Source: a virus
Virus record (IMG/VR): IMGVR_UViG_3300027983_000100
Span: 1-27,706 of that record
Strand: one strand, 5' to 3'
DNA: 27,706 nt
The notes below the pieces were generated by a model. The model worked only from the letters and a program-made list of their open reading frames with translations. It did no database searches and had not been told where the DNA came from. The position numbers were made by a program, and so were the translations under genes. Every line of letters begins with the position of its first letter. Positions within the stretch are counted from its first letter, which is position 1. Shown here piece after piece: positions 2,611 to 18,045 of this stretch.

Positions 2611-3702
2611 ATGCCACCTCCTGCAGTTGCTTTTCTAACTTACGATTGGACATTTGGCTTCAAACCATTACAACCAAACGGTTGTGCTTGGTATAGATGC
2701 TATTTACCAATGAAGCAACTGAAGGAGCTTGGCTGGGAATCTGGTATTGGATTACCAGGATTCAATCCCGATAATGGATTTGGAATATTAATTCCAGATG
2801 AAAAAGCTATTCATGGTTGGGACATTGTTGTTTTAAAACTTATAATGCTTGAAAGATGTGTAGAACAAGTTAGACAGGCAAGAGAATTTGGTCAAAAAAT
2901 AGTTATTGATATTGATGACCATATGGAAGGGCTTGATGAAACAAATCTTGCATATAAATTAACTCATCCCGATTCAAATCCAAATAATAATAGAGATCAT
3001 TATATTGCTATTATTGAACAAGCAGATGCACTTATTACATCTACCCCATTTCTTTATGATTGGTATAAAAATAAATATCCAGAAAAACCAATTTTTATAG
3101 TTAGAAATGGTATTGATATTGAAAGATGGAAAATAAGAAAAGACCATAATGGTCGACTACCTACGTTTGGATGGGTTGGAGCAACCCCTTGGAGGTCTGG
3201 AGATCTTGAAACTCTTAATCCATTCTTTGGAGAATTCTTAAAACAAAGACATTTAAAATTTCATCATGCTGGAAATATCATAGGAGCTCCTACTGCTGCT
3301 AAGCAAATTGGAATTGATAAAAAAATATGCACGGTAGAGCCAATGCAAACCTTGAGAAATGTTCCAGACCTTTATAGAAGAATTGATGTTGGAATTGTTC
3401 CACTAAACAATATTTCATTTAATCATGCAAAGTCAAACCTTAAAGGATTAGAATATGCAGCGTCAGGTGTACCATTTATCGCATCTGGAGGACTACCCGA
3501 ATATCAACTGCTTGCTGATGCTGGAGTTGGAAGAGTGGCTAATACCCCATACGAATGGTTTGGACATATGGAAGAATTGTTAGATCCAAAAGTAAGACTG
3601 GAAGAAAGAACTAAATCATATGAAATTGTATCAAATCAATTCTCTATGAAACAAAGAGGGCAGGACTGGAAAGAAGTATTTGAACAGATACTTGCGATAT
3701 AA
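2611..3702 (+). CDS. GT-B fold glycosyltransferase (GT4-like)
   Basis: A 363-residue soluble protein. The N-terminal Rossmann half carries NGCAWYRCYLPMKQL (residues 23-37) and KIVIDIDDHMEGLDETN (about 91-107). The C-terminal half opens with IFIVRNGIDIERW (about 151-163) and holds the nucleotide-sugar-binding signature KSNLKGLEYAASGVPFIAS (about 274-292), whose Glu in GLEYAASG corresponds to the conserved acidic residue of GT1/GT4 enzymes. Likely role: transfer of a sugar from an activated donor, either onto phage DNA or structural proteins or onto the host surface; the acceptor cannot be told. The start at ATG 2611 has no clear ribosome binding site, so expression may depend on read-through from the gene before it. 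Confidence 0.75.
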   Translation: MPPPAVAFLTYDWTFGFKPLQPNGCAWYRCYLPMKQLKELGWESGIGLPGFNPDNGFGILIPDEKAIHGWDIVVLKLIMLERCVEQVRQAREFGQKIVIDIDDHMEGLDETNLAYKLTHPDSNPNNNRDHYIAIIEQADALITSTPFLYDWYKNKYPEKPIFIVRNGIDIERWKIRKDHNGRLPTFGWVGATPWRSGDLETLNPFFGEFLKQRHLKFHHAGNIIGAPTAAKQIGIDKKICTVEPMQTLRNVPDLYRRIDVGIVPLNNISFNHAKSNLKGLEYAASGVPFIASGGLPEYQLLADAGVGRVANTPYEWFGHMEELLDPKVRLEERTKSYEIVSNQFSMKQRGQDWKEVFEQILAI

Positions 3703-3709
3703 TAAGAGT

Positions 3710-4240
3710 ATGGCAAAATTATTTATCAAGAGTGACGAAGATTCAAATTTAGTTAAAGAGTTTTTAAAGCAATACATTAGACAAGAAACAGTTCACAACA
3801 TATCAGTCCACGAAGCAAATGCTGATATTTGTATTAGTTTAGTTATTCGAGAGTATCCAGAAGAGGAAAAACTTCAAGCATATTTTTACAATAACACAGA
3901 AGGCTTGGAAGATCTTGCTGACAAGATTTATTATCAATGTTTGAAGGCTGACATTAAAACCAGAACTTTAGCAAAAAGGTCAATGCCAAGAGACGAATAT
4001 GAAATAGATTTTAAATGCCCTACTTTAATTATTAGTTTAACAAATGACTCAAAAGAAATTGATGAAGAAATATATGCTTTGGCTATTGGTCAAGGAATTG
4101 TTTCTAAGTTTAAGCCTGGAACTGTATTCGACACCTTCTCAGTAAAAGACAGGGTTAAAAAGCCAGGGAATGGAAAAGCTGTTGATAGAAAATTCATACA
4201 AGAGCCAACAAGTAACTCAAGACTTCTTTTTAGGAAGTAG
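3710..4240 (+). CDS. unknown protein; weak resemblance to an amidase domain lacking metal ligands
   Basis: A 176-residue protein. I start it at ATG 3710 (MAKLFIKSDEDSN), 8 bases after the previous stop; a TTG 30 bases upstream lies inside the glycosyltransferase gene and is less likely. I do not recognise the family with certainty. The strand/helix order ADICISL ... LADKIYYQCLKADIKTR ... CPTLIISLTNDSKEIDEEIYALAIGQGIVSKF resembles the second half of Amidase_3 cell-wall amidases (normally ADLFVSIHAN ... LA..I ... PAVLVE.GFLSN ... IA.GI). The Zn-binding His/Glu positions are not there (SLVIR replaces SIHAN) and the N-terminal GHGG part is absent. If related, it is inactive. Its 3' end overlaps the convergent gene by 11 bases. 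Confidence 0.5.
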   Translation: MAKLFIKSDEDSNLVKEFLKQYIRQETVHNISVHEANADICISLVIREYPEEEKLQAYFYNNTEGLEDLADKIYYQCLKADIKTRTLAKRSMPRDEYEIDFKCPTLIISLTNDSKEIDEEIYALAIGQGIVSKFKPGTVFDTFSVKDRVKKPGNGKAVDRKFIQEPTSNSRLLFRK

Positions 4241-4561: not shown

Positions 4562-6502
4562 ATGAACAAGATTGACGAAAAAGGATCTTTAATAGATGGA
4601 TATTCAAATTTTATAGCAATATCACGATATGCGAGGTGGGTAGAGAGTGAAAATCGTAGAGAAACTTGGCAGGAGACTGTTAATAGATATTGTAACTTTA
4701 TGAAAGACCATTTAGTTTTAAATTATGGATATAGTCCAAATGCAAAGATTTTTGATGAAGTAAGATATGCTATTCTTAATCATGAGATAATGCCGTCTAT
4801 GAGGGCACTGATGACCGCAGGGCCAGCTTTAGAAAGAGACCACATTGCAGCGTATAACTGCTCCTTTATTGCTGTGGACAGCCCCAGAGCCTTTGACGAG
4901 GCCATGTACATTCTTATGAACGGAACTGGAGTTGGCTTCAGCGTTGAGCAAAAATATATAAACGAATTGCCAGTAGTCTCTGAATCATTTTTTGATACTG
5001 ACACAACTATTGTTGTTGACGATTCTAAACTTGGATGGGCAAAGTCATATAAAGAACTAGTTGCACTCTTGTATCAAGGACAAATTCCAAACTGGGATGT
5101 CTCCAAGGTTCGCCCTGCAGGAGCCAGGCTAAAAACTTTTGGTGGACGTGCATCAGGACCAGAACCACTAGTTGATCTATTTAAATTTACTATCGAAACC
5201 TTTAAAGCGGCTGCAGGAAGAAAATTGAAATCAATTGAATCGCATGACATCATGTGTAAAATTGGAGAAGTAGTTGTTGTTGGAGGAGTTCGTAGAAGTG
5301 CATTAATTTCACTTTCAAATCTTGACGACTTTGAAATGGCAAAGGCAAAGAGCGGTCAATGGTGGGAAGTAAATTCTCAAAGAGCACTTGCTAATAACTC
5401 TGCTGTTTATAATTCAAAGCCAAACACTGCTCAATTCCTTCGTGAATGGAGAAATCTATATGAATCAAAATCTGGAGAACGTGGAATTTACAATATAGAT
5501 TCAGTTCGTAAGCATATTGACTCATTTGGTCGGAGAGATTCTAGCCTCGTTGCAGGAACAAATCCTTGTGGAGAAATCTTATTGCGCCCTTCCGAATTTT
5601 GCAACCTTACAGAAGTTGTAATTAGTGCATTAGATACAAGGGAAACTTTGCTTGAAAAAGTAAGACTTGCCACTATCCTTGGAACGTGGCAGTCTACCTT
5701 GACTAATTTCAAGTATATTAGAAAAGCATGGAGAGATAATTGTGAAGAAGAAAGACTTCTTGGAGTATCTTTAACAGGTATTTATGGAAATAAAATAACT
5801 TCTACAAATGGAAAAGCTCTTGAAGCACTTCTTGATGAAATGAGACATCTATCTGTTTCAGTAAATGAAAAAGAAGCAAACTCTTTAAAGATTAATCCTT
5901 CAGTATCAATTACTTGTGTAAAGCCGTCAGGGACAGTCTCCCAGCTCACAGGAGTGTCCTCTGGTATCCACCCGTGGCATTCAGAATACTATATGAGAAG
6001 TGTTAGGGCTGACAACAAAGATCCGTTAACTCAGTTCCTAAAGGAGTCTGGAATCCCGTCTGAGCCAGATGTAATGAAGCCAGACATGACTACTGTATTC
6101 TATTTTCCAATTAAGGCTCCAAAGAATGCAGTTGTTACAAAAGATTTGACTGCAATTGATCATCTTGAAATGTGGAAAACTTATAGGACACACTGGACAG
6201 AGCATAATCCAAGTGTTACTATCAATGTTGAAGAGGACGAGTGGATGCGTGTTGGTGCTTGGGTATTTGACAACTTTGATTCAATTGGAGGAGTTTCTTT
6301 TCTTCCAGCGGTAGAGCATTCTTATAAGCAAGCTCCTTATCAAGAAATCTCAAAGGAAGAGTATGAGAAAATGGTAAAAGATATGCCAGACCCAATTCAA
6401 TGGGAAATGCTTTCTTTATATGAAACAACAGATGGAACTACGGGTAGCCAAGAGCTTAGTTGTGTGGCTGGGGCTTGCGATATTGTCGACATCACAAGCT
6501 AG
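4562..6502 (+). CDS. nrdJ: adenosylcobalamin-dependent (class II) ribonucleotide reductase, monomeric type
   Basis: This 646-residue enzyme reduces ribonucleotides to deoxyribonucleotides using adenosylcobalamin to make the active-site thiyl radical, feeding phage DNA synthesis in the cytoplasm. Motifs in order: PSMRALMTAGPAL with NCSF (Cys100, first active-site redox Cys), GTGVGFSVE (121-129), RPAGARLKTFGGRASGPEPL (184-203), GGVRRSALISL (241-251), TNPCGEI (Asn334, radical Cys336, Glu338) and FCNLTEV (Cys347, second redox Cys). The tail ends SCVAGAC (Cys634 and Cys639), the shuttle pair that re-reduces the active site through thioredoxin or similar. The motif spacing matches the monomeric Lactobacillus-type enzyme (739 residues) rather than dimeric NrdJ, but this protein is about 90 residues shorter. 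It stands among late structural genes, with a divergent region upstream and a new promoter after it. Confidence 0.92.
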   Translation: MNKIDEKGSLIDGYSNFIAISRYARWVESENRRETWQETVNRYCNFMKDHLVLNYGYSPNAKIFDEVRYAILNHEIMPSMRALMTAGPALERDHIAAYNCSFIAVDSPRAFDEAMYILMNGTGVGFSVEQKYINELPVVSESFFDTDTTIVVDDSKLGWAKSYKELVALLYQGQIPNWDVSKVRPAGARLKTFGGRASGPEPLVDLFKFTIETFKAAAGRKLKSIESHDIMCKIGEVVVVGGVRRSALISLSNLDDFEMAKAKSGQWWEVNSQRALANNSAVYNSKPNTAQFLREWRNLYESKSGERGIYNIDSVRKHIDSFGRRDSSLVAGTNPCGEILLRPSEFCNLTEVVISALDTRETLLEKVRLATILGTWQSTLTNFKYIRKAWRDNCEEERLLGVSLTGIYGNKITSTNGKALEALLDEMRHLSVSVNEKEANSLKINPSVSITCVKPSGTVSQLTGVSSGIHPWHSEYYMRSVRADNKDPLTQFLKESGIPSEPDVMKPDMTTVFYFPIKAPKNAVVTKDLTAIDHLEMWKTYRTHWTEHNPSVTINVEEDEWMRVGAWVFDNFDSIGGVSFLPAVEHSYKQAPYQEISKEEYEKMVKDMPDPIQWEMLSLYETTDGTTGSQELSCVAGACDIVDITS

Positions 6503-10006: not shown

Positions 10007-10026
10007 GTAATATTTTATGGTACAAT
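9998..10026 (+). promoter_or_regulatory. promoter with leaderless spacing before the portal operon
   Basis: TTGGTG (9998-10003), a 17-base spacer and TACAAT (10021-10026) preceded by TGG (10018-10020), an extended -10. Only six bases separate the -10 from ATG 10033, so the predicted transcript starts at or next to the start codon. No ribosome binding site is present, which agrees with a leaderless mRNA. Confidence 0.55.
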
Positions 10027-10032
10027 ATTGTC

Positions 10033-10401
10033 ATGGAATATGGAAAAGCGTTAGGCAAGTTACCAAATAAGCCAAAAGTAAGAGTAGTAGAGAACGATTC
10101 CGAATATGGCTTATATGTATGGAAGACAGTAGATGGAAAAATATTTGGAGATGGCGAAGGCAATTTCATGAATATCCCAGCCAGAAAATATGATTTAGAT
10201 TGTATTAACAGAATTACACAAGCCGCAGCACATTATGGTGCTGGAGAAGGAAAGGCGGCATTTATGCCAGGAATAACAAGAATTACAGATGAAGAGCATT
10301 CTGTACAGATTGACAGAATGAGGCAAGGGTTAATTCCAAGTGAATTTGACACTGGTGCTTTTAAAGACGCGGCCAAAGGATTAAAAACTCATGGAGAATA
10401 A
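10033..10401 (+). CDS. conserved phage protein preceding the portal gene, unknown function
   Basis: A 122-residue protein. ATG 10033 is chosen over an in-frame upstream start at 9985 because the latter lies inside the previous gene and a promoter -10 ends at 10026. The sequence (MEYGKALGKLPNKPKVRVVE, YGLYVWKTVDGKIFGDGEGN, then the charged IDRMRQGLIPSEFDTGAFKDA) has no membrane segment or known catalytic motif. It reads like a small mixed alpha/beta protein conserved upstream of portals in related phages. It overlaps the portal gene by 11 bases, so the two are translationally coupled and a head-assembly role is plausible. It is too short and lacks the DNA-binding look expected of a small terminase. 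Confidence 0.6.
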   Translation: MEYGKALGKLPNKPKVRVVENDSEYGLYVWKTVDGKIFGDGEGNFMNIPARKYDLDCINRITQAAAHYGAGEGKAAFMPGITRITDEEHSVQIDRMRQGLIPSEFDTGAFKDAAKGLKTHGE

Positions 10402-11950: not shown

Positions 11951-11984
11951 CACAATACTGTGGTAAACTTATATATACTACATG

Positions 11985-11990
11985 TATAAT
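11985..11990 (+). promoter_or_regulatory. possible -10 element for a leaderless protease transcript
   Basis: TATAAT at 11985-11990 with TG directly in front (11983-11984) lies 9 bases before ATG 12000. Neither ATG 12000 nor the in-frame ATGs at 11982 and 11994 has a ribosome binding site. A transcript starting near 11997-12000 would be leaderless. The -35 region (TGGTAA, 11961-11966) is weak. Confidence 0.4.
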
Positions 11991-11999
11991 TGGATGGAT

Positions 12000-13382
12000 A
12001 TGAGTATTTTAAATAAAGCTAATTGGGTGTCTGACAATAACGACATCAGCCTGTCTATGCCAATTGCTAAAATAGATACAGAACGTAGAATCGTCTCTGG
12101 CTTTGCCACGCTTGATAACATTGACAAGCAATCAGACATTGTTCCAATCGATGTTAGTTTAAAAGCCTTTGAAGCATTCCGTGGAAATATTAGAGAAATG
12201 CACCAACCGTTAGCAGTTGGAAGAGTAATTAATTTTAGACAAGAAAAGTTTTTTGATAAATCTACAGATAAGCTTTATAACGCTGTCTATGTAGATGCAT
12301 ATGTTTCAAAGGGAGCACAAGATACCTGGGAGAAAGTTCTTGATGGAACTCTTTCAGCATTTTCTATTGGAGGAGTAATCAAAGATTCAGAAAATTCTTG
12401 GGATGAAAATGTTGATAAAACTATTAGAGTCATAAAAGACTATGAACTTCTGGAGCTATCTTTGGTAGATAATCCAGCTAATCAATTTGCAAATGTTGTA
12501 TCAATTGAAAAATTTGATAAAGACTCTCAAACTAATGGTATAATTGCAAAAGCAGATACTGAAAATGTCTACTGGTGTGAGAATGATGGAATAGTCAGAC
12601 TCTCAGAAGTTGATGATTCAAGCTGTCCTTCATGTGATATTAGCATGAAGAATATTGGTTTCGTAGAGACAAAGGATGCAGAAAAGGCTATGACTGTCAA
12701 ATCACTTTTAAATAAACTTATTGGTGTTACAGACCTGGAAAAATCCGAAGATGTTTCCGAAACCCTAAAAACTTCAGGCGAAACGTCTGAAATCACAATT
12801 GATGAAAATTTGTCAGTTGTAGAAAAAAATATCAAGGAGGAGAACAACGTGTCAGAAGAAAATACATTAGTAGAAGAGACCGTTGAAAAAAGTGCAGTCG
12901 ATGAGACTGTTGCCGAAGCTCCTGCCGAAGAAACCGTAGAAAAATCAGTTGACGCAGTAGACGATGTTGAGGAAACAGTAGTTAAGTCTGCTGATTCAGA
13001 AGAGGCGCTTGCAGAAGTTGCTTCCGATGTCGTTGAAGTTGAAAAGTCCGTTGCTGAGGTTAATGCAACTGATTCTGAGCTTGTAAAAGCTGTTGACGAA
13101 ATCAAGGTTTCAGTAACAGAGGCAGTGAGTGAACTTGTTTCAACAATTAAGTCACTAAATGAAGAGGTTGCAGGTATCAGAAAGTCAATTGATACCGTAA
13201 AGGAAGAAATTTCTGGAGTAAAAGGCAATCTTGAAGATTTCGGAAAGCGAGTTGACGGTCTAGAAGACGACACAGCTGTCCAAAAGTCTGGCGATCTCGG
13301 CGGGATCGTTCAGGGAACAAAAATAACAAAAGGGTCTATGTGGGGTGGACGTTTCCTAAGTTCCGCTGACCTATATTCTTAA
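12000..13382 (+). CDS. HK97-type prohead maturation protease fused to a scaffold domain
   Basis: A 460-residue protein; ATG 12000 (MSILNKANWV) is preferred because of the -10 at 11985-11990, with ATG 11982 as alternative start. Residues 20-170 are the HK97-like (S78) prohead protease: MPIAKIDTERRIVSGFATL, His68 in MHQPLAVG, Ser122 in LSAFSIGG, then ELLELSLVDNPANQF. Next comes a small Cys motif (Cys193, Cys209, Cys212; VYWCENDG ... CPSCD). From about residue 240 it turns into a Glu/Val/Ser/Lys-rich repetitive stretch (VEETVEKS-type units), then a predicted coiled coil (EIKVSVTEAVSELVSTIKSL, IRKSIDTVKEEISGVKGNLE) and a conserved-looking end GGRFLSSADLYS. The protease trims head proteins after assembly; the C-terminal half is scaffold-like and has its own internal start at 12849. 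Confidence 0.85.
   Translation: MSILNKANWVSDNNDISLSMPIAKIDTERRIVSGFATLDNIDKQSDIVPIDVSLKAFEAFRGNIREMHQPLAVGRVINFRQEKFFDKSTDKLYNAVYVDAYVSKGAQDTWEKVLDGTLSAFSIGGVIKDSENSWDENVDKTIRVIKDYELLELSLVDNPANQFANVVSIEKFDKDSQTNGIIAKADTENVYWCENDGIVRLSEVDDSSCPSCDISMKNIGFVETKDAEKAMTVKSLLNKLIGVTDLEKSEDVSETLKTSGETSEITIDENLSVVEKNIKEENNVSEENTLVEETVEKSAVDETVAEAPAEETVEKSVDAVDDVEETVVKSADSEEALAEVASDVVEVEKSVAEVNATDSELVKAVDEIKVSVTEAVSELVSTIKSLNEEVAGIRKSIDTVKEEISGVKGNLEDFGKRVDGLEDDTAVQKSGDLGGIVQGTKITKGSMWGGRFLSSADLYS
12836..12851 (+). promoter_or_regulatory. internal in-frame ribosome binding site and GTG start
   Basis: GGAGG at 12836-12840, within AAGGAGGAG (12834-12842), lies 8 bases before GTG 12849. It is among the strongest ribosome binding sites in the window and sits inside the protease reading frame, in the same frame, exactly where the protease part gives way to the scaffold part. 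Confidence 0.6.
12849..13382 (+). CDS. nested scaffold protein from internal start
   Basis: Translation from GTG 12849 in the protease frame would give a 177-residue, acidic, largely helical protein beginning VSEENTLVEETVEKS and sharing the C-terminus of the protease fusion. Its composition (Glu, Val, Ser, Lys, Ala), coiled-coil segment and position directly before the major capsid gene fit a capsid scaffold. This parallels the known lambda C/Nu3 arrangement, where a scaffold is translated from inside the protease gene. The reading frame and ribosome binding site are visible; expression of the short form is inference. Confidence 0.55.
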   Translation: MSEENTLVEETVEKSAVDETVAEAPAEETVEKSVDAVDDVEETVVKSADSEEALAEVASDVVEVEKSVAEVNATDSELVKAVDEIKVSVTEAVSELVSTIKSLNEEVAGIRKSIDTVKEEISGVKGNLEDFGKRVDGLEDDTAVQKSGDLGGIVQGTKITKGSMWGGRFLSSADLYS

Positions 13383-13406: not shown

Positions 13407-14405
13407 ATGACAGAAAATAATGAAATTTTAGAAAAGTCGGCTGCAGCAGGTTCAATCGTATCTGGTGGTATCGGAGGTGTCTCCGATCCAATTGCTGGTA
13501 TTCTCGATAACACTAACCCAGTTGGTGATCTAGTATCTGATGGCGGTATTTTGCAGCCAGAACAGTCACGTCAGTTCATTGAGTATATCTTTGAACAACA
13601 AGTACTAGCTCGTGATGGACGTAGAGTTACAATGAGAGCTAATACAACCGAACTTGAAAAGATGAATGTTGGAGAGCGTGTAATTCGTGCAGCAGCACAA
13701 GCTGATGCATCTTACACAAATGCCGATGTTCAATTCACTAAGGTTCAACTTACCACGAAAAAGATTCGTCTTGACTGGGAAGTTTCAACTGAAGCTCTTG
13801 AGGATAATATCGAAGGTTCTGGTCTTGAGGATCACTTGGTCCGTACAATGACCCGTGCTTTCGCAAACGATCTTGAAGATCTAGCCATCAATGGTACAGG
13901 AAGTGGTACAAACAACTTCCTTAATATCCTTGAAGGTTTCGTCTCGTACGAAGCTGATGGAAATTCAGCGACTTATGGTACAACTGTAGAAGACTTGCAG
14001 GGACTTATCCTTGCAATGCCTCGCAAGTACCGTGCAGCTCGCTCGAACATGAAGTTCTATGCAGACACAGAGACTGTTGGTACAATTATCAACGGACTAG
14101 GTTCTGCTGGTAACCTGAATTCAGAAAGGATTGTTGAGCGTGTTATCGATGGTACTGCTCCGCAAACCATGGGTATGCCAATCGCATATCGTGTTCTGGG
14201 TCTTCCACTAGTCGAAGTTCCTTTGATGCCTTCTGGTTATGTATCACTTACATTCCCAGAAAACCGTATCTGGGGCTTCCAGAGAGATGTAACAGTGCAC
14301 CGTGAATTCAAGCCAAAGAAAGATACAGTAGAATATACCGTATTCTTACGCTTTGGTATTGCAGTCGAAGAAACTGATGCAGTAGCATTCATGCAAGAAG
14401 CCTAG
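13407..14405 (+). CDS. major capsid protein, HK97 fold
   Basis: A 332-residue protein from ATG 13407 behind GGAGGTGA (13391-13398), one of the best ribosome binding sites here. After a flexible N-terminus (EKSAAAGSIVSGG) come GGILQPEQSRQFIEYIFEQQ and RDGRRVTMRANTTELEKMNVGERV (about 47-96), then KIRLDWEVSTEALEDNIEGSGLE, FANDLEDLAINGTGSG (loop and spine-helix region), and a late YRVLGLPLVEVPLMPSGYVSLTF with RIWGFQRDVTVHREFKPKKDTVEYTVFLRFG, typical of the P-domain and end of HK97-like capsid proteins. Size and position after protease/scaffold agree. Arginine is written mainly CGT/CGC while the portal uses AGA, consistent with very high expression. A terminator follows 20 bases later. Confidence 0.88.
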   Translation: MTENNEILEKSAAAGSIVSGGIGGVSDPIAGILDNTNPVGDLVSDGGILQPEQSRQFIEYIFEQQVLARDGRRVTMRANTTELEKMNVGERVIRAAAQADASYTNADVQFTKVQLTTKKIRLDWEVSTEALEDNIEGSGLEDHLVRTMTRAFANDLEDLAINGTGSGTNNFLNILEGFVSYEADGNSATYGTTVEDLQGLILAMPRKYRAARSNMKFYADTETVGTIINGLGSAGNLNSERIVERVIDGTAPQTMGMPIAYRVLGLPLVEVPLMPSGYVSLTFPENRIWGFQRDVTVHREFKPKKDTVEYTVFLRFGIAVEETDAVAFMQEA

Positions 14406-14426
14406 TTAAGTCTAGCAATATTTGTG

Positions 14427-14462
14427 GGGGAGACATTAACTTGTCTCCCCTTCATCTATTTA
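14427..14462 (+). terminator. rho-independent terminator after the major capsid gene
   Basis: GGGGAGACA (14427-14435) and TGTCTCCCC (14442-14450) form a perfect 9-bp stem with a 6-base loop, followed by a T-rich stretch (TTCATCTATTTAT). It begins 21 bases after the capsid stop. Confidence 0.8.
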
Positions 14463-14466
14463 TAAA

Positions 14467-14475
14467 TGCTATAAT
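14467..14475 (+). promoter_or_regulatory. extended -10 promoter for the neck operon
   Basis: TGCTATAAT: TG at 14467-14468, TATAAT at 14470-14475, starting just after the terminator tail and 14 bases before ATG 14490. No -35 is recognisable because that stretch is the terminator stem. AGAGG at 14481-14485 serves as ribosome binding site. Confidence 0.6.
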
Positions 14476-17364: not shown

Positions 17365-18045
17365 ATGGCTACTCGTGGAAATTCCAATCAAATTATTGTT
17401 GGAGCAGCACAACTGTTTATCTCAAAGCAGGGCCCACTGGAATACATTCCAGCAACAACCCCAGCAGAGTACTCCTTCAATAGTGGATCCGTATCAAGTG
17501 TCCCAGCTTTCGCAGCAGGAACACTTTATGCAGACACTGTTGACGCAAGCACAGCAAACTGGAGAAACGTGGGCTACACTATGAACGGTCTGGAAGTACA
17601 ATTCCAGCCAGACTTTGGTGAAGTTCAGGTTGATCAGCTTCTTGACGTTGCAAAGCTTTTCAAGCAAGGTATGCAGGTGAATATGGTAACAGCATTTGCT
17701 GAAGCTACTCTTGAAAATCTTGTTGTTGCAATTGCAACTTCAGACTCTAACTATACAAGCGGTGATCCAGATGAATTAGAACTTAACCTGTCCGCAGGAG
17801 ACTTAGGTGAGGTTCCTTTGGAACGTGCACTTATTGCTATTGGCCCAGGTTCTGGTGATCCTACAGCAACTGGCGCAAGCAAGGTTGAACGTGTCTATGT
17901 TGCAAACCGTGCCCTGTCTATTGACAGTGTAACAGTTTCGGCAAAGCGTGATACTGCATCTACATACGAAGTATCGTTCCGTTTGCTACCAGCTAGCAAT
18001 GGCTCGTACGGCAAGATTGTTGACCGTGTAAAAGGCACAGCCTAG
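17365..18045 (+). CDS. major tail (tube) protein
   Basis: A 226-residue protein. ATG 17365 (MATRGNSNQIIVGAAQLFIS) is preferred over GTG 17353, which is part of the ribosome binding site AGGTGA (17351-17356). The sequence is beta-rich: NWRNVGYTMNGLEVQFQPDFGEVQVDQ (about residues 68-94), NMVTAFAEATLENLVVAIAT, then VERVYVANRALSIDSVTVSAKRDTASTYEVSFRLLPA near the end. This is the usual outline of siphophage tail tube proteins, which stack into hexameric rings around the tape measure. Arginines are nearly all CGT, as in the capsid gene, again pointing to high expression. A terminator follows 29 bases after the stop. Confidence 0.75.
   Translation: MATRGNSNQIIVGAAQLFISKQGPLEYIPATTPAEYSFNSGSVSSVPAFAAGTLYADTVDASTANWRNVGYTMNGLEVQFQPDFGEVQVDQLLDVAKLFKQGMQVNMVTAFAEATLENLVVAIATSDSNYTSGDPDELELNLSAGDLGEVPLERALIAIGPGSGDPTATGASKVERVYVANRALSIDSVTVSAKRDTASTYEVSFRLLPASNGSYGKIVDRVKGTA

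Follow-up and report, generated by a model that had tools for sequence, protein, structure and literature searches.

The stretch of viral DNA analysed here (the window, 27,706 nucleotides, IMG/VR record IMGVR_UViG_3300027983_000100) carries a prohead protease gene directly ahead of its major capsid gene, and the question arises whether this gene encodes one protein or two. A sequence-only reading had proposed that a Shine–Dalgarno (SD) sequence and a GTG codon inside the gene start a nested scaffold gene in the same frame. Judged by comparison with related phages, positions 12000–13382 very probably encode two co-terminal proteins, a near-leaderless S78 protease–scaffold fusion of 460 aa and an SD-led free scaffold of 177 aa. 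In this phage group a single gene almost certainly gives rise to two proteins.

The protease gene and its domains

The full-length gene (12000–13382, plus strand, start ATG 12000) was assigned by alignment, Pfam and PHROG as a candidate prohead protease–scaffold fusion of 460 aa. Pfam Peptidase_S78 (PF04586) matches with 29.8 bits against a cut-off of 21, and phrog_9427 (head maturation protease) covers the full-length product end to end with an E value of 5e-121. In the AlphaFold2 model, for which an alignment of 30 relatives consisting of the window and the searched loci was used, the protease domain (residues 1–175, 12000–12524, plus strand) is predicted confidently, with a pLDDT of about 85 over most of residues ~1–175. 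All 36 sequences compared have His68 and Ser122, which represent the putative catalytic His and Ser; both precede the internal start at residue 284. The best folds found for the protease model in the PDB are HCMV proteases (probability 1.00, but E 3e-3 and TMt 0.38), and the best BFVD matches to the model include viral prohead proteases. By these family matches the protein belongs to the Peptidase S78 (HK97-like) prohead proteases, with a predicted herpes-protease-like fold.

The protease domain is followed by a zinc-ribbon-like module (WC...CPSC, residues 187–223, 12558–12668, plus strand), recognised by strands in the model and partly kept cysteines. These cysteines are retained in many lineages and replaced in several others, and the whole module is absent from the Rhodococcus phage NiceHouse. 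One relative (L121, 2495–4084) has several dozen extra codons between this module and the internal start, with SD and ATG kept. After the module the model shows a helix and then a low-confidence stretch of residues 243–358, presumably disordered. GTG 12849, that is residue 284, falls within this stretch and ahead of a further helix at residues 358–430. The earlier claim that the internal site lies exactly where the catalytic part ends thus holds for the junction of protease and scaffold parts in general, but not for the catalytic core, which ends near residue 175. A search for naturally split protease and scaffold genes gave no convincing case among the relatives; in two loci (L101 and L281) the protease part is interrupted or followed by an in-frame stop.

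The internal start and its conservation

The proposed signal was confirmed in the letters of the window. The SD AAGGAGGAG occupies 12834–12842 on the plus strand, inside the prohead protease gene, and GTG 12849–12851 follows in the protease frame with a spacing of 8 nt between GGAGG and GTG. The nested reading frame (12849–13382, plus strand) comprises 177 codons and shares the protease's stop at 13382; its delimitation is supported by GTG or ATG at this codon in close relatives and by the predicted fold. With an anti-SD duplex energy of −12.1 kcal mol−1 the internal site is exceeded by only three starts in the window, those of the major capsid gene (−15.2) and of the genes at 17365 (−13.7) and 18826 (−12.8). 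The strongest SDs of the window are those of structural genes, and the internal protease site is among them. Synonymous shuffling of the whole window gene matched the internal-site energy in 0 of 200 cases. Since this procedure is too blunt where the encoded residues already favour an SD, a site-specific synonymous shuffle was added, giving p=0.0075 at the exact site.

The sequence-only reading had named conservation of the internal site in related phages as a check, and loss of the site with the protein sequence kept as the outcome that would speak against it. Relatives were collected from freshwater viral contigs and from Streptomyces and Rhodococcus phages, with identities down to ~30 %. 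Viral contigs searched with a profile contributed 80 loci among at least 599 matching stretches, a search starting from the second clade 80 further loci, and a scaffold-only search 74 further ones, again among at least 599 matching stretches. Among the distinct relatives whose 3′ end is complete, 191 of 195 carry a strong SD with an in-frame start at the protease/scaffold junction. Of the four exceptions, two contigs (L268, L273) end inside the nested part and two (L063, L260) are broken; the latter pair had been considered as split genes and was rejected for this reason. The second clade also keeps internal SD and start. In the Streptomyces phages of the Stanwilliamsviridae as well as in the Rhodococcus phages Weasels2, Trina, Dorin and NiceHouse, this junction likewise carries an SD of the GGAGG or AGGAG type and, behind it, a GTG or ATG in frame. 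These relatives share about 30–44 % identity with the window protein and their junction residues do not align, though SD and start are retained. The outcome was therefore the opposite of the one named: the DNA site is kept while the surrounding residues change.

For a quantitative comparison 31 representatives, each below 75 % identity, were used, in which the nested product measures 160–207 aa. The SD at the junction is kept in 31 of 31, in two codon phases: in one the motif encodes K-E-E, K-E-V, K-E-A or K-E-G, in another E-G-G or K-G-G. All 31 also have a start codon at workable spacing behind it. Under site-specific synonymous reshuffling the summed energy was −395 observed versus −189 for the shuffled sequences (sd 18), with a combined Fisher p of 1e-12. 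The p values of single lineages were often modest (0.1–0.3), because the residues encoded at ATG starts (KE.., M) favour an SD in themselves. As a control, in-frame internal sites with dG≤−11 were counted in other genes; they occurred in 29 of 31 protease genes, compared with 3 of 31 portals and 2 of 26 capsid genes.

Among close relatives (38 distinct coding sequences, identity of at least 68 %) 37 carry GTG at codon 284 and one carries ATG, although GTG accounts for only 8 % of their Val codons. Both GAG codons ahead of codon 284 are invariant, GAG making up 24 % of the Glu codons. Much of the 3′ half shows little synonymous diversity in this set, also beyond the internal site, so that conservation among close relatives is weak evidence when taken alone. 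Across the wider set, the DNA-level comparisons indicate that the internal site is a conserved start, and we infer that it is used.

Initiation of the full-length protein

The sequence-only reading and the raw list of open reading frames placed the start of the full-length gene at 11982. This position was rejected, as the alignment with about 60 close relatives places the start at ATG 12000; they share a TATAAT 9 nt upstream of it. In the window this hexamer lies at 11985–11990 (plus strand) and represents a putative −10 element with a predicted transcript start 0–4 nt before ATG 12000. The full-length start had further been described as having no ribosome binding site. It is indeed preceded by a very weak SD (dG −3.1), but an SD is not absent, since close relatives carry AGGA at this place (about −4). 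That the internal signal is stronger than that of the full-length gene was borne out both in the window (−12.1 versus −3.1) and in all 31 representatives, whose mean SD energies are −2.8 (full-length ATG), −12.7 (internal site) and −14.2 (capsid gene).

The hexamer itself recurs. An exact TATAAT 8–10 nt before the protease ATG was found in 25 of 31 representatives compared with 1.3 % of the ATGs in the same loci, and a match in at least five of six positions in 28 of 31 compared with 5.8 %. In nearly all lineages a −10 hexamer is located 6–10 nt upstream of the full-length ATG. Nearly all named Streptomyces phages checked show the arrangement TTG-17/18-TANNNT-6-ATG, and nearly all named Rhodococcus phages checked show TTG-17/18-TANNNT with 9–10 nt to the ATG; Weasels2 has TTGACA-17-TATACT-9-ATG, and NiceHouse has no good −35. 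The TATAAT at 11985 was missed by a scan of the region for consensus promoters, as no TTGACA-like −35 accompanies it in the window. If the transcript starts about 7 nt after the −10 box, the distance to the ATG leaves a leader of 0–4 nt, too short for an SD; with a predicted gap of 9–10 nt the leader is not strictly zero. A −10 element close to the start combined with the lack of a strong SD is also the pattern of leaderless genes in actinobacteria and their phages. The full-length start is thus probably (near-)leaderless as judged from promoter spacing, and we infer that the protease is translated from leaderless mRNA. The earlier suggestion of a control by leaderless versus led initiation gains support from the fixed position of the −10 element.

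Alternatively, the full-length protease could be translated from an ordinary SD or by coupling to the upstream gene, the TATAAT marking only the promoter of the capsid operon. We regard this as rather unlikely, though it deserves more weight than the other alternatives considered below. The AGGA before the ATG in the closest relatives of the window fits such a start, and some SD use is possible there; likewise, some Streptomyces relatives overlap the upstream gene, as coupling would require. Most lineages, however, lack a good SD at the full-length ATG, as the mean energy given above shows, and the distance from −10 to ATG is fixed at 6 or 8–10 nt, too short for an SD in such a transcript. The (near-)leaderless start is therefore preferred.

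Promoter spacing and alignment also favour the second ATG in BoomerJR, Tomas, Bordeaux and Trina (L068, L074, L076, L080), where the annotated protease start looks misplaced by two codons in the first three and by four in Trina. Elsewhere in the window, a TATAAT ends about 6 nt before ATG 3710 (3698–3712) and a −10-like TGGTACAAT ends about 6 nt before ATG 10033 (10010–10035), both with almost no SD. The (near-)leaderless arrangement may accordingly occur at several genes of this phage.

The nested product and related systems

The nested product lacks the catalytic residues, and it has the in-frame internal start and shared stop of a nested protease/scaffold gene. It is predicted to consist of an acidic disordered N-terminal part, a 73-residue helix (358–430) and a conserved C-terminal tail, with low model confidence in this half (pLDDT about 30–70). 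The major capsid protein downstream (13407–14405, plus strand, 332 aa) is preceded by a strong SD (dG −15.2), and its capsid domain PF05065 begins at residue 48; in the Streptomyces relatives about 25 residues precede the domain. Comparison of the capsid N-termini across the representatives revealed no HK97-type delta-domain, as there is no room for one ahead of the capsid domain. No further gene separates the protease gene from the capsid gene. Since the capsid protein is without a delta-domain, the nested product is likely the scaffold, a role with which its predicted structure and its position are consistent. Pfam searches of the nested part gave only sub-threshold coiled-coil matches and no scaffold family, and a sequence search against solved structures with the whole alignment returned coiled-coil noise only.

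Lys-Ser dipeptides are frequent in the scaffold part of the 31 representatives (170 versus 38 expected, ~4.5-fold) and are not enriched in the protease part (41 versus 59 expected); they are possibly cleavage sites of the maturation protease. On the 3′ side of the capsid gene a strong terminator-like hairpin (14426–14475) is directly followed by a TATAAT, which precedes the next gene by 14 nt. Adjoining the structural genes are also a glycosyltransferase (2611–3702) and a ribonucleotide reductase with an insertion domain of the B12-dependent type (4562–6502).

Three further explanations of the internal site or its product were weighed. If both starts are used, the short product might still be something other than a scaffold, for example a protease regulator or a minor virion protein, and the missing match to any Pfam scaffold family would agree with this. 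We consider it improbable, as no other scaffold candidate exists between protease and capsid gene and an acidic, helical protein with a conserved C-terminal tail just before the capsid gene has the layout of known scaffolds. A free scaffold might also be cleaved from the fusion, as happens with P2 gpO, the internal SD being incidental. Such a protease would be expected to process the fusion of which it is part, and the Lys-Ser pairs may be the cut sites; nevertheless, proteolysis leaves unexplained why SD and start are conserved at the DNA level while residues and codon phase change, which makes it a very improbable source on its own. Cleavage may, however, come on top of internal initiation. 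Least probable, by a little, is a ribosome pause without initiation, in which the SD-like motif at the domain junction would aid folding of the protease. The motif does sit between a folded domain and a disordered linker, but a pause site needs no start codon 7–11 nt downstream, whereas a start at workable spacing was found in every representative, and in the close relatives the rare Val codon is invariant or swapped for ATG only.

With internal initiation of a scaffold as the preferred reading, the following sequence of events can be proposed. Transcription from a promoter with its −10 box 9 nt before ATG 12000 would yield a (near-)leaderless mRNA, from which the full-length fusion would be made; ribosomes would bind the same mRNA again at 12834–12842 by SD pairing and produce free scaffold. 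Free scaffold and a minority of fusion would co-assemble with the capsid protein via the shared C-terminal tail. The fusion would carry the protease into the prohead, and the protease would digest the scaffold and itself before packaging. As to the molar ratio, the strong internal SD with its good spacer would favour much scaffold, but leaderless starts can also be efficient, and leaderless mRNAs can be translated well in actinobacteria. We lean, with modest confidence, towards one capsid-operon mRNA with two modes of initiation, a leaderless or ultra-short leader for the fusion and an SD for the scaffold, the ratio being set by the balance in the host and the arrangement being conserved across many actinobacterial phage lineages.

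The annotated Streptomyces and Rhodococcus records examined list only the full-length protease in this region and not the internal start; the record of Mandalore carries no annotation. A phage collection gave 164 matching records, the majority from Streptomyces phages in which the gene is labelled ‘capsid maturation protease’ only, and two profile scans of viral contigs returned at least 599 matching stretches each. In the open-access literature we found no published nested scaffold or leaderless start for these phages. From the comparisons made here, the nested scaffold gene appears deeply conserved and unannotated, and would supply the missing scaffold gene for a large and common phage group. 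It would also place the protease/nested-scaffold design in an S78 herpes-like protease, as a UL26/UL26.5 pairing achieved by translation. The most interesting part is the two-mode initiation, since it offers a way to test whether a ratio of structural proteins can be set by leaderless and SD-led initiation on a single mRNA.

Nested scaffolds as such are already known from lambda C/Nu3, Mu and herpesvirus UL26/UL26.5; the one described here is unannotated, occurs in an S78 herpes-like protease and has signal strengths opposite to those of lambda. The analogy to lambda C/Nu3 drawn in the sequence-only reading holds for the architecture, a protease gene with an in-frame nested scaffold gene and a common stop ahead of the capsid genes. 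It does not extend to the enzyme, as lambda C is annotated as an S49 peptidase and the window protease, belonging to S78, is not a member of the lambda C family proper. The SD strengths are reversed as well: lambda has a strong SD on C (aggaggaga GTG, −12.2) and a weak one on nu3 (−6.9). HK97 gp4/gp5 shares the gene order of maturation protease and HK97-type capsid protein, but there the capsid protein carries the scaffold as 102 additional residues at its N-terminus (PMC12749128), whereas the window scaffold is fused to the protease and its capsid protein has no delta-domain. In two-polypeptide endolysins an in-frame internal start likewise gives a C-terminal product, and cluster-wide conservation of its position was used as evidence (PMC9430671); protein and function differ from those of the window gene.

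Closer parallels are found in Mu and herpesviruses. In Mu and the Mu-like phage PaMx73 a scaffold start lies in frame within the protease gene, and PaMx73 uses a Val codon preceded by an SD, the relative position being retained in divergent relatives (PMC4378225). These phages belong to another group, and the passages of that source covered here report no (near-)leaderless promoter for the full-length start. The herpesvirus genes UL26 and UL26.5 overlap, sharing reading frame, 3′ end and scaffold, and the protease part on the 5′ side is unique (PMC4498786). The short herpesvirus form comes from a separate 3′-coterminal transcript (title of Welch 1991, cited in PMC4498786), in contrast to the internal ribosome binding site of the window gene, while the predicted fold of the window protease is closest to HCMV protease in the PDB. 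The window gene is thus nearest to the herpesvirus pair by protease fold and to Mu by mechanism.
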